Of a stretch of DNA of 64,000 bases, positions 57,517 to 63,341 are shown piece after piece. The stretch is from Bradyrhizobium manausense (GTDB taxonomy: Bacteria; Pseudomonadota; Alphaproteobacteria; Rhizobiales; Xanthobacteraceae). Positions within the stretch are counted from its first letter, which is position 1; every line of letters begins with the position of its first letter. The stretch lies in assembly GCF_018131105.1 (NCBI RefSeq), contig NZ_JAFCJI010000002.1:248001-312000 (forward strand). The letters run 5' to 3'. Below the pieces are notes generated by a model. It did not search any database and was not told the DNA's origin. It saw only the letters and a program-made list of their open reading frames with translations. Both the position numbers and the translations under genes were made by a program.

Positions 57517-58311
57517 TCATCCAAACATATACGACGCCATCGCGACATTTGCGACCTCGTCGACGAAGACACGCTTGCCGACGTCGCTGCCGGCGGCGCC
57601 GGCCGCCACCATCAGCGGCAGCAGATGGTCCTCGCGGGGATGGGCGAGACGGGCGCTCGGCGCATTCTCCCAGTCGACCAGCATCGCGTTGCGGCGCGCA
57701 ACATCCGGATTGCCGATCGCCTCGTTCAGATAGGCCTCGAAATCATACGAGACGGGCTTGGACTCGGCGCGTCCAAACCCGCGCATGTTGTGATAGGTGA
57801 GCCCGCTGCCGACGATCAGAACGCCTTCGTCGCGGAGCGAGGCGATCGCCTGCCCGACCTTGATGTGCTCGGCCGCATCATAGCTCGACTTCAGCGACAG
57901 CAGCACGATCGGCATGTCGGCGTTCGGATACATCAGGCCGAGCGGCACGAAGGTGCCGTGGTCAAACCCCTGATTGGGATCTTCCCGGCAATCGAGACCT
58001 ACATGCTTGAGCAGCGCCCTCACCTCCGCGGCCAACTCGGGCTGGCCCGGCGCCGGGTACGTGATGTGATAGGTATGCTCGGGGAAACCGTAATAGTCGT
58101 ACACCATCGGCGGATGCGCCGAGGTCGACACGGTGAAGGCGTCGGCTTCCCAATGGCCGGTGATGACCAGCACCGCCTTCGGTCTTTCAGGGAGAAGTTG
58201 CGGCAGCCGGCCGAACTCCGCGGCGGTCTTGGCATATTGCACCCGCCGGTCCTCCATGAAGGGCCAGGGGCCGCCGCCATGGGACAGGAACAGGGTCGGA
58301 AATCGCGTCAT
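57517..58311 (-). CDS. DODA-type extradiol dioxygenase (LigB family)
   Basis: A 264-residue class III extradiol dioxygenase-fold protein. Metal-ligand positions visible are His11 (FLSHGGGP), His53 (ITGHWE) and His118 (GFDHGTFVPL), with the catalytic-type His174 in GLTYHNMRGF. The pattern matches the 4,5-DOPA dioxygenase-like branch, which uses zinc or iron and cleaves small catechols (family knowledge). No partner genes for aromatic ring degradation are adjacent. It ends with VANVAMASYMFG, also a family trait. Confidence 0.9.
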   Translation of the reverse strand: MTRFPTLFLSHGGGPWPFMEDRRVQYAKTAAEFGRLPQLLPERPKAVLVITGHWEADAFTVSTSAHPPMVYDYYGFPEHTYHITYPAPGQPELAAEVRALLKHVGLDCREDPNQGFDHGTFVPLGLMYPNADMPIVLLSLKSSYDAAEHIKVGQAIASLRDEGVLIVGSGLTYHNMRGFGRAESKPVSYDFEAYLNEAIGNPDVARRNAMLVDWENAPSARLAHPREDHLLPLMVAAGAAGSDVGKRVFVDEVANVAMASYMFG

Positions 58312-60416: not shown

Positions 60417-60650
60417 GACGCCTGGTCGGTCGGTACGCGTGGCTAGTAACCGCAAGCATACACAGACGGAACGTCCATGATTAGACCGGGCAATCACGGC
60501 CATTGTGCATCGCGATGCGTGCATTGAAGCAGGGTTCGCGCCACCACGATGATGCCGCAAAGCGACTACCGAAGATTGCACTTGCTCTGATGACAAGCCG
60601 AGCCTGCAGCGCTAGCCTGCCGGCAAAACAAAATACACGGGAGGAATACC

Positions 60651-63341
60651 ATGCCTGACGCAATGGTCGCCGCACGTGAGTCTAAGGCGGCGAGTGGATC
60701 GGCCCAACAGGTCGATGTCGCCGTGGTCGGCGCCGGATTTGCCGGCCTCTATCTGCTCCACCGCCTGCGCAAGGCCGGCCTCTCGGCCGTCGGTCTCGAG
60801 GAAGCCGGCGATGTCGGCGGCACCTGGTACTGGAACCGCTATCCCGGCGCGCGCTGCGATATCCAGACCATCGACTACAGCTACACATTCGATCCGGAAC
60901 TCGACAAGCTCTGGACCTGGTCGGAGAAATACGCGGCCCAGCCGGAGATCCTGCGTTACCTCGGCTTCGTCGCGGATCGCTACGATCTGCGCCGCGACAT
61001 CCGCTTCAAGACCAAGGTCACCGAAGCCAAATGGGACGAGCAGGCCGAGCGCTGGCAGCTCACCACCGACAACGGCGCGCCTGTTTCATGCCGCCATTAC
61101 ATCATGGCCACCGGCTGCCTCTCCGCGCCAAAGCCGCCGGAGATCGACGGCGTCAAGGATTTCAAGGGCAAGATCTATTTCACCGGACGCTGGCCGCATG
61201 ACGGCGTCAATCTCGCCGGCAAACGCGTCGCCGTGATCGGCACGGGCTCGTCGGCGATCCAGTCGATTCCGCTGATCGCCGAGCAGGCCGCGCATCTGAC
61301 CGTGTTCCAGCGTACGCCGAATTTTGCGCTGCCTGCGCATAACGGCCCCTCGCCGGCCGATCGCAGGGACCTGTTCCAGAGCGATCGCGCGGCCTATCGC
61401 GAGCAGGCGCGGCAGTCGATGACCGGCGTGCCCTATCCGCAGCAGACCGTCGTGAGCTGGCAGCTCAGCGATGCCGAGCGTCGTGAGCGGTTCGAACGCG
61501 CCTGGGCCGCCGGCGACCTCGTCCACATCCTGAGCCAGCTCTGGACTGACCAGGGCAACGAGCTCGACGGCAACAAGATCGTCCAGGACCTGATCCGCGA
61601 AAAAATCTCGGCGGCGGTGAAGGATCCGGAGACGGCGGCGGCGCTGATGCCCCACGACCATCCCTTCGGCGCCAAGCGGCCCTGCCTCGATACCAACTAT
61701 TACGCGACCTACAACCGGCCGAACGTCACGCTGGTCAATCTGCGCCAGGAGCCGATCAAGGCGATCACCGCGGGCGGCATCACCACCGGCAAGCGCAACG
61801 TCGATGTCGACGTCATCGTTTTTGCGACCGGATTCGACGCCATGACCGGCGCGATCCGCGCCGTGCATCCGATCACCGGGCGCGGCGGCAAGTCGCTCAC
61901 CGATGTCTGGGCGCAGGGGCCGCAGAGCTATCTCGGGCTCACGGTCGAGGGCTTCCCGAACTTCTTCATGATCACGGGACCCGGCAGCCCGTCGGTGCTG
62001 TCGAACATGGCGGTCTCGATTGAACAGCATGTCGACTGGGTGGTGGATCGCATTGCGGCGCTGCGCGATGCCGGCTTCACCACGATCGAGCCGACCGAGA
62101 CGGCGCAAGCCGGCTGGAACAGGCACATGGCCGACTGCTCGATGCTGACCCTGCACCGGCTCGCCAACACCTGGTACACGGGCGCCAACGTGCCCGGCAA
62201 GGTGCAGGGCCTGATGCCCTATACCGGCGGTGTCGGCCCCTATCGCAGCATCTGCGATGAGGTCACCAGCCGCGGCATGCTCGGCTTCAAGCTCACCGGC
62301 CCCAACGTCGCCGCGCAATGCAATGACGGCGAGGTGGTGAAGCTGCAGCCGGACGTACGGCTGGTGCTGAACCTGTTGGCGTCGCTGAACCTGCCGCCGA
62401 TCGAGTCGATGGGCGCCGCCGGTGCGTGTGCCTTCGTCAACGAGTTCAACAAGGGTCGCCCGGCGGGACGGCCGATCGGCGAGATCGTCGACGGCACCCT
62501 GCCCGGCGCCGACGGCCCGTTGCCGTATCGCGTCTACAAGCCGGCGACGCCGGGACCGCATCAGGCCGTGGTCTATTTCCACGGCGGCGGCTGGGTGCTC
62601 GGCGACGAGCAGTCGGACGAGCCGTTCTGCCGCGACATGGTGCGGCGAACCGGCATGATGTTCGTCAGCGTCGGCTATCGCCACGCGCCGGAGCATCGCT
62701 TCCCGACGGCGGCGGAGGATGGCTATGCGGCGACACGCTGGATCTCGGCGCATCTGGCCGAGCTCGGCGGCATCCAGGGCCCGGTGCTGGTCGCGGGCTG
62801 GAGTGCCGGCGGCAACATCGCCGCCGTGACCTGCCAGCTCGCGCGCGATCGCGGCGGGCCCGAGATATCAGGCCAGTTGCTGGTATGCCCGGTGACCGAC
62901 TGCACCTTCGATCGACCGTCCTACAACGACAATGCGACCGGCTACTTCCTGACCCGCTCGCTGATGTACTGGTTCTGGGACCTCTATTGCTCGCCTGCCG
63001 ACCGCACCGATCCGCGCGTCTCGCCACTGCGCGGCAAGGTCTCTGGCCTGCCGCCGGCCTTCGTGGTCACCTGCGAGTTCGATCCGCTGCGCGACGAGGG
63101 CATCGCCTACGCCGAGGCGATGGCGGCCGCCGGCGTTCCGGTCGAGCAGCTCAAGGCGCACGGCCATTTCCACTCGTCCTTTGCGATGGTCGACGTGGTG
63201 ATCACAGGCGTCCAGGGCCGGGTGCAGATGGCGGAAGCCCTGCGGCGCTTCGCCGGGCTTCCGCCGGAGGTCAGCCGCGGCGACGAGACCAGCCACGGCC
63301 ATGCGAGCCCAGGGCACAAGATCGCGGCAGCCGCGAGTTGA
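60651..63341 (+). CDS. Baeyer-Villiger-type monooxygenase fused to HSL-type esterase
   Basis: 896 residues. N-terminal part (about 20-560): FAD motif VVGAGFAGLYLLHRL (26-40), DVGGTWYWNRYPGARCD, the NADPH motif VIGTGSSAIQ (195-204) and FATGFD (391-396). The BVMO fingerprint FxGxxxHTxxW reads F171-K-G-K-I-Y-F177-T-G-R-W181, with Phe in place of the His (codon 61179-61181). C-terminal part (about 600-870): HGGG 644-647, GWSAG with Ser718, Asp811 and His841, a complete hormone-sensitive-lipase-type triad. One chain could turn a ketone into an ester and then hydrolyse it. GGAGG precedes the ATG. Substrate unknown; cytoplasmic. Confidence 0.93.
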   Translation: MPDAMVAARESKAASGSAQQVDVAVVGAGFAGLYLLHRLRKAGLSAVGLEEAGDVGGTWYWNRYPGARCDIQTIDYSYTFDPELDKLWTWSEKYAAQPEILRYLGFVADRYDLRRDIRFKTKVTEAKWDEQAERWQLTTDNGAPVSCRHYIMATGCLSAPKPPEIDGVKDFKGKIYFTGRWPHDGVNLAGKRVAVIGTGSSAIQSIPLIAEQAAHLTVFQRTPNFALPAHNGPSPADRRDLFQSDRAAYREQARQSMTGVPYPQQTVVSWQLSDAERRERFERAWAAGDLVHILSQLWTDQGNELDGNKIVQDLIREKISAAVKDPETAAALMPHDHPFGAKRPCLDTNYYATYNRPNVTLVNLRQEPIKAITAGGITTGKRNVDVDVIVFATGFDAMTGAIRAVHPITGRGGKSLTDVWAQGPQSYLGLTVEGFPNFFMITGPGSPSVLSNMAVSIEQHVDWVVDRIAALRDAGFTTIEPTETAQAGWNRHMADCSMLTLHRLANTWYTGANVPGKVQGLMPYTGGVGPYRSICDEVTSRGMLGFKLTGPNVAAQCNDGEVVKLQPDVRLVLNLLASLNLPPIESMGAAGACAFVNEFNKGRPAGRPIGEIVDGTLPGADGPLPYRVYKPATPGPHQAVVYFHGGGWVLGDEQSDEPFCRDMVRRTGMMFVSVGYRHAPEHRFPTAAEDGYAATRWISAHLAELGGIQGPVLVAGWSAGGNIAAVTCQLARDRGGPEISGQLLVCPVTDCTFDRPSYNDNATGYFLTRSLMYWFWDLYCSPADRTDPRVSPLRGKVSGLPPAFVVTCEFDPLRDEGIAYAEAMAAAGVPVEQLKAHGHFHSSFAMVDVVITGVQGRVQMAEALRRFAGLPPEVSRGDETSHGHASPGHKIAAAAS

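Follow-up and report, generated by a model that had tools for sequence, protein, structure and literature searches.

Among the described systems closest to the locus reported here, BVMOAf1 of Aspergillus fumigatus is a protein of 905 amino acids with a His173Gln replacement in the fingerprint of Baeyer-Villiger monooxygenases (BVMOs), and its BVMO domain, fused to PTDH, was active on a bicyclic ketone and on sulfides; according to the excerpts available from that report, the full-length construct yielded no soluble protein and the C-terminal domain was cut off for the assays (PMC3762062). The pair BpfC/BpfD combines a BVMO with a separate alpha/beta hydrolase, and its conversion of a ketone into an acid and a phenol has been shown biochemically, as stated in the excerpted text (PMC12724174). 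Artificial BVMO fusions are the subject of a review (PMC7814890, likewise in excerpt). A description of a natural BVMO-esterase fusion was not found in the literature searched, which lay mostly outside subscription journals, and the excerpt of PMC9141793 names none.

Such a fusion is encoded in the window analysed here, a stretch of 64,000 nucleotides from Bradyrhizobium manausense to whose numbering the coordinates below refer. The open reading frame (60651-63341, forward strand, as are all features of the gene) starts with ATG and translates into 896 amino acids, and a GGAGG that is likely its ribosome-binding site lies 6 bases 5' of the ATG (60640-60644). The first-pass annotation, made from the sequence alone, had proposed that a BVMO-like half and a complete HSL-type esterase share one chain, and Pfam domains, structural relatives, motifs and orthologues bear this out. 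The BVMO-like half (residues 19-549, 60705-62297), delimited by matches to solved BVMOs, the PAMO alignment and a fold match, contains Pyr_redox/FMO-like Pfam domains and has STMO 4ap3 (566 bits) and PAMO 1w4x (555 bits) as its best solved relatives. The esterase half (residues 563-866, 62337-63248) was placed by Abhydrolase_3 (PF07859, 246 bits, residues 640-842), by its best solved relative Est8 4ypv (259 bits) and by a fold match. Between the two lies a linker (residues 550-562, 62298-62336) with a CNDG stretch, delimited by comparison within the clade described below.

As in other type I BVMOs, two GxGxx[G/A] Rossmann motifs are present in the N half (GAGFAG, residues 27-32, 60729-60746; GTGSSA, residues 197-202, 61239-61256), together with a first fingerprint, GGTWYWNRYPGARCD (residues 56-70, 60816-60860), that follows the pattern [A/G]GxWxxxx[F/Y]P[G/M]xxxD as given in the excerpt of PMC4498894. 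The second fingerprint, FKGKIYFTGRWP (residues 171-182, 61161-61196), departs from the strict form FxGxxxHxxxW[P/D] in having Phe for His, while its remaining positions fit: phmmer pairs F177 (codon TTC, 61179-61181) with PAMO His173, and the replacement noted in the first-pass annotation is thereby confirmed. In the alignment, D70, the last residue of the first fingerprint, corresponds to PAMO D66, R221-T222 (61311-61316) to R217-T218, K342-R343 (61674-61679) to K336 and R337, and W508 to W501, so that the active-site Arg and Asp are present as R343 and D70. We take Asp66 and Arg337 to be active-site residues tied to Baeyer-Villiger catalysis, Lys336 as well as Arg337 to have functional roles, and Arg217-Thr218 to bind the NADPH phosphate; R337K and D66A mutants of PAMO are named in PDB titles. 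The predicted fold is that of PAMO and CHMO. With the equivalents of Arg217 and Thr218 kept, the alignment gives no sign of the changed coenzyme handling that had been considered. By kinship, the N half is a BVMO of the STMO/PAMO group and a predicted enzyme, although it fails the strict fingerprint; since the BVMOAf1 domain is active without His, that strict form is, by analogy, no sure test of a type I BVMO.

The C half carries the HGGG oxyanion motif of HSL-type esterases (HGGGW, residues 644-648, 62580-62594), a nucleophile elbow GWSAG (residues 716-720, 62796-62810) with S718 and, as aligned with Est8, the triad residues D811 (63081-63083) and H841 (63171-63173) within an Abhydrolase_3 fold. 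For HSL-type esterases, also called family IV, a strict GDSAG elbow is a criterion, from which GWSAG deviates while keeping the general GxSAG form; NCBIfam includes GTSAG, GESAG and GCSAG esterase subfamilies. Most other esterases of the compared set have GDSAG, as against GWSAG in the fusion clade.

A sequencing error or a lone pseudogene, the former having been raised beforehand for positions 61179-61181, is ruled out by the codon TTC in 9/9 orthologues compared and by recurrence across the genus. Because of these nine codons and the recurrence of the fusion in a further 125 of the 146 genomes from the genus, with identities of 79-96%, neither chance nor sequencing error explains the Phe177 fusion. 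Both halves are under purifying selection: in nine comparisons, dN/dS ranged from 0.08 to 0.19 in the BVMO half and from 0.10 to 0.26 in the esterase half. Of the same-genus copies looked at, two (L103 and L104) have an intact BVMO half and a broken or cut esterase half, for which an assembly error is possible.

Counting genomes with a best E of 0, the fusion was present in 126 of the 146 genus genomes, in five of them as partial matches; relatives with 92-93% identity come from Bradyrhizobium agreste (L219) and B. japonicum (L235). Wider genome searches detected the full-length fusion in 7/7 same-genus genomes (one with two copies) and 1/142 others of the family (149 genomes), at E 1e-150 only in the 9 same-genus genomes of the order (297 genomes), and in the 10 same-genus genomes of the phylum (398 genomes), where at E 1e-195 there were 9 other genomes among those listed, 3 of them with another fusion. 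In the phylum of Mycobacterium intermedium (L240; 396 genomes), a full-length relative occurs in 6, the L240 genome itself included. For most genomes in all these searches, scoring was confined to the top 2-6 candidates, and weaker fusions may therefore have escaped. The viral contigs searched for the fusion gave no match.

The phylogeny supports the earlier suggestion of a distinct subfamily. With the fingerprint columns omitted, the fusions with a GWSAG elbow form a clade with UFBoot/SH-aLRT of 100/99 (10 of 73 rows) in a tree whose bootstrap had not fully settled, from which two same-genus copies were excluded and in which 29 His rows were hand-picked, and with SH-aLRT 99 (12 of 149 rows) in a larger tree that excludes 9 of 158 representatives with short flanks. 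This BVMO clade is matched by a single GWSAG clade in the esterase tree (support 100, 9 rows), and the two halves have therefore descended together. By record label, members come from Bradyrhizobium, Mycobacterium intermedium (L240), Pseudonocardia lacus (L199) and MAGs of Alphaproteobacteria (L176), Burkholderiaceae (L205), Chromatiales (L181), Gammaproteobacteria (L183) and Actinomycetota (L173), so that the clade spans at least two phyla, Pseudomonadota and Actinomycetota. L215 belongs to it as well, under a label, Bifidobacterium breve, that looks unreliable; MAG contigs labelled Devosia equisanguinis (L233) and Klebsiella pneumoniae (L239) also carry such BVMOs, under species labels that look doubtful too. 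The row nearest to the clade, L184 (support 95, or 90/98 in the 73-row tree), has Gln in an unfused BVMO whose gene is closely followed by an esterase gene, and this esterase does not lie near the fused ones in the esterase tree.

The phylogeny and tabulation of the fingerprint residue that the first-pass annotation had proposed gave the fused BVMOs of the present type a clade of their own with no His in 51 of 51 distinct members (48 Phe; Tyr, Ser and Val once each), and the worry that all relatives might have His is thus dispelled. Phe as a trait of a single genus is ruled out by members from elsewhere, in which the residue is Phe, Tyr, Ser or Val. For a broader view, 221 distinct BVMO domains, each covering no fewer than 420 profile positions, were reduced to 158 representatives at 85% identity. 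Of 17 fused representatives, 16 are without His (F 9, V 2, and I, Q, R, S and Y once each) and one has it, and 132 of 141 unfused ones have His (the other nine: R 4, Q 2, S 2, F 1), counts that have to be read knowing that the genome-contig query was built from His-less members and that related rows are not independent. Among fusions that turned up once the pattern had been noticed, 9/9 were without His, namely L248 (same genus, F), L256 (T), L258 (V), L259 (I), L274 (Y), L275 (V), L276 (S), L277 (V) and L278 (F), of which L275 resembles L215 and is perhaps not independent, and the unfused BVMOs met later (L257, L261, L268, L269, L272, L273) had His in 6/6.

Side-by-side genes for an unfused BVMO and an HSL-type esterase occur in 24/158 representatives, and 20 of these 24 keep His, so that the notion that an esterase neighbour goes with His loss is unsupported for unfused pairs; 52 of the 114 representatives called unlinked have less than 1.6 kb of flank on the shorter side, where neighbours may be missed. 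That all fusions are without His is ruled out by fusions of Neobacillus, Mesobacillus and Paenibacillus (L226, L227 and L232), which keep it. Topology tests, weakened by the fact that the groups were named after the trees had been seen, rejected a single origin of all fusions (AU p 0.0022) and of all His loss (p 0.0014) and did not reject both domain orders as one clade (p 0.113), and parsimony required 8-9 changes of the His state and 4 of fusion. The link between fusion and His loss is a pattern and is not proven, because the independent-pairs test had 3 pairs on supported branches, or 4 on all, which are too few independent events to reach significance; when linkage to an esterase, whether by fusion or by adjacency, was set against His loss, the same test likewise gave no significance (9 and 16 pairs).

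Equivalents of PAMO Asp66, Arg217, Arg337 and Trp501 are found in 12/12 clade representatives and 13/13 other His-less ones, and that of Lys336 in 12/12 and 11/13 (Arg in 2). W128 is present in 12/12 clade representatives vs 6/133 His types, and can be dismissed as a general compensator for the lost His given its presence in just 2/13 other His-less representatives. Where PAMO has E68, the fusion has Q72; this position is Glu in 123/133 His types, 2/12 of the fusion clade and 9/13 other His-less representatives, and is perhaps coupled with the fingerprint His.

Other arrangements of the same two domains were encountered. Reversed fusions, with the esterase ahead of the BVMO-like domain and Val, Ile or Gln in the fingerprint, are present in L136, L146, L147, L148, L151, L166, L167, L258 and L259, although L136, L146, L151 and L166 either overlap or are closely related. 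In the 73-row tree this reversed type (V, I, Q) forms one clade (100/98), and its esterases fall into a 9-row group (support 82) together with those of several esterase-first gene pairs. The His-keeping Bacillales type lies apart in the tree, and so does a second, distant Bradyrhizobium fusion with an Arg fingerprint and a GESAG elbow (L091 7746-10424, L092 5955-8633, L108 8019-10496); the latter is surrounded by aromatic-degradation genes in L091 (HpaB, LigB, Rieske oxygenase) and by muconate genes on plasmid pCB82_1 (L108). Another distant fusion, L256, has a 906-aa frame, GESAG and a Thr fingerprint. In Marinibacterium anthonyi (L112, 3941-6488), an unfused BVMO with a Phe fingerprint is one base from an esterase gene, and the pair adjoins genes annotated as nitrophenol monooxygenase and flavin reductase. 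On a plasmid of the haloarchaeon Natronorubrum aibiense (L111, 3908-7262), the gene for a BVMO that keeps His and that for an HSL-type esterase follow the same order, about 0.7 kb apart.

Gene context at the 24 loci compared gave no pointer to the substrate. Divergent to the fusion lies a type-B carboxylesterase gene (COesterase, PF00135; 58659-60131, reverse strand), of which a relative was found upstream in 5/24 fusion or near-fusion loci, the window's own included; it was the sole shared neighbour identified in a comparison that is weak, as antisense frames displaced real genes in the gene choice. A gene for a LigB-type ring-opening dioxygenase (PF02900) lies at 57517-58311, also on the reverse strand.

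An AlphaFold2 model built from a 54-row alignment (pLDDT 90.1, pTM 0.88) matched PAMO 2ylw in VIA-align over residues 16-549 (Z 48.9, rmsd 1.9, 526 residues) and Est8 4ypv over residues 561-869 (Z 47.2, rmsd 1.6, 309 residues). The arrangement of the two domains is predicted with confidence, because pTM is 0.88 while PAMO alone covers the query with a TM of 0.57. In 12 clade representatives, the linker between the domain matches has 15-17 residues, with CNDG in 9/12, and in the light of the model a channelling of the ester between the halves is plausible.

From our point of view, the protein is probably a naturally fused two-step enzyme that turns a ketone into an alcohol or phenol plus an acid and does not need the fingerprint His. 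The N half, with FAD and NADPH, would insert oxygen next to the ketone carbonyl and the C half, as an HSL-type esterase, would hydrolyse the resulting ester, for a net conversion of ketone into alcohol (or phenol) and carboxylic acid; we infer both reactions, their sequence and the working of the domains as one unit. The fold and motifs of both halves, their purifying selection and common descent, the side-by-side BVMO and esterase genes elsewhere and the BpfC/BpfD precedent speak for this reading. The precedent of BVMOAf1 suggests that the fusion works without the His, which would have been lost before the clade members split, most likely to Phe and later to Tyr, Ser or Val. Against this two-step reading count the two same-genus copies with a broken esterase half and the fact that we know of no activity for any clade member. 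His mutants of CHMO and HAPMO, moreover, had reduced efficiency or were inactive, as the excerpts of PMC3762062 report, and this harm would equally speak for a different role, in which the His-less half would serve chiefly as an S- or N-oxygenase or as a slow NADPH oxidase, the esterase would have unrelated esters as substrates and the fusion would only secure equal amounts. With Gln in place of His, BVMOAf1 accepts thioanisole and benzyl ethyl sulfide, both with excellent selectivity, and does not oxidise cyclohexanone or phenylacetone, which would fit this role, but it also oxidises a bicyclic ketone (PMC3762062, in excerpt), and the equivalents of Asp66 and Arg337 are kept in 25/25 His-less representatives, while fusion to an HSL-type esterase took place in either order and in more than one event. 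We regard such a role as unlikely; the N- or S-oxygenase considered in the first-pass annotation finds no sign in the alignment, in which the equivalents of Asp66, Lys336 and Arg337 are kept. Loss of the His by drift, in an oxygenase half that is weakened or dead and rides on a useful esterase, could explain why the position varies (F, Y, S, V) within the clade. The BVMO half, however, shows roughly the same low dN/dS as the esterase half and retains its other motifs, which is unexpected for a dead domain and makes drift very improbable.

It is a real possibility, though one to which we give less than even chances, that both halves act without direct hand-over of the ester, the fusion serving co-expression and the His loss being unrelated. 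The His kept in 20/24 adjacent unfused pairs and in the Bacillales fusions, and the independent-pairs tests without significance, would agree with this, whereas the short clade linker and the single confident domain arrangement of the predicted model argue for hand-over. As the two-step reading needs both reactions and not the hand-over, the two overlap and the likelihoods given here do not sum to one. One could further speculate, with considerable doubt, that joining to an esterase repeatedly frees the oxygenase from the His, the esterase, held by its short linker, taking over the conformational gating attributed to the His and the ester being passed within a locked unit. Such gating would explain the His loss in several fusion lineages and both domain orders and, if true, would mean that the role of the hallmark His lies in domain motion and not in chemistry.

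Returning to the two-step reading, the clade offers ready-made one-protein candidates for ketone-cleaving cascades as well as natural variants at a fingerprint position of debated role. In one published survey, BVMO sequences were curated by the His fingerprint (PMC4498894), and another study accepted only His or Gln at this position (PMC3762062), both as excerpted; the GWSAG fusion clade would therefore fall out of such sets, and searches demanding the His would miss these fusions.

Overall, the N half has its fold in common with the type I BVMOs PAMO 1w4x and STMO 4ap3 (46-50% identity) and shares with them both Rossmann motifs, the first fingerprint and the equivalents of Asp66, Lys336, Arg337 and Arg217, whereas these enzymes have the fingerprint His and no esterase domain, and the fusion has an esterase and no His. 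With HSL-type Est8 4ypv, the C half has in common the fold (43% identity), HGGG and the Ser-Asp-His triad; it differs from esterases such as Est8, which have GDSAG, in its GWSAG elbow and its position C-terminal to a BVMO-like domain. BVMOAf1 is alike in combining, in one chain, a BVMO lacking the fingerprint His with a large C-terminal domain, but, according to the excerpted report, it is fungal, has Gln and ends in a putative polynucleotide synthase (PMC3762062). BpfC/BpfD, finally, resembles the proposed route from ketone over ester to acid and phenol, yet, as described in the excerpt, consists of two proteins, of which BpfC has the His fingerprint, with a known substrate (PMC12724174).
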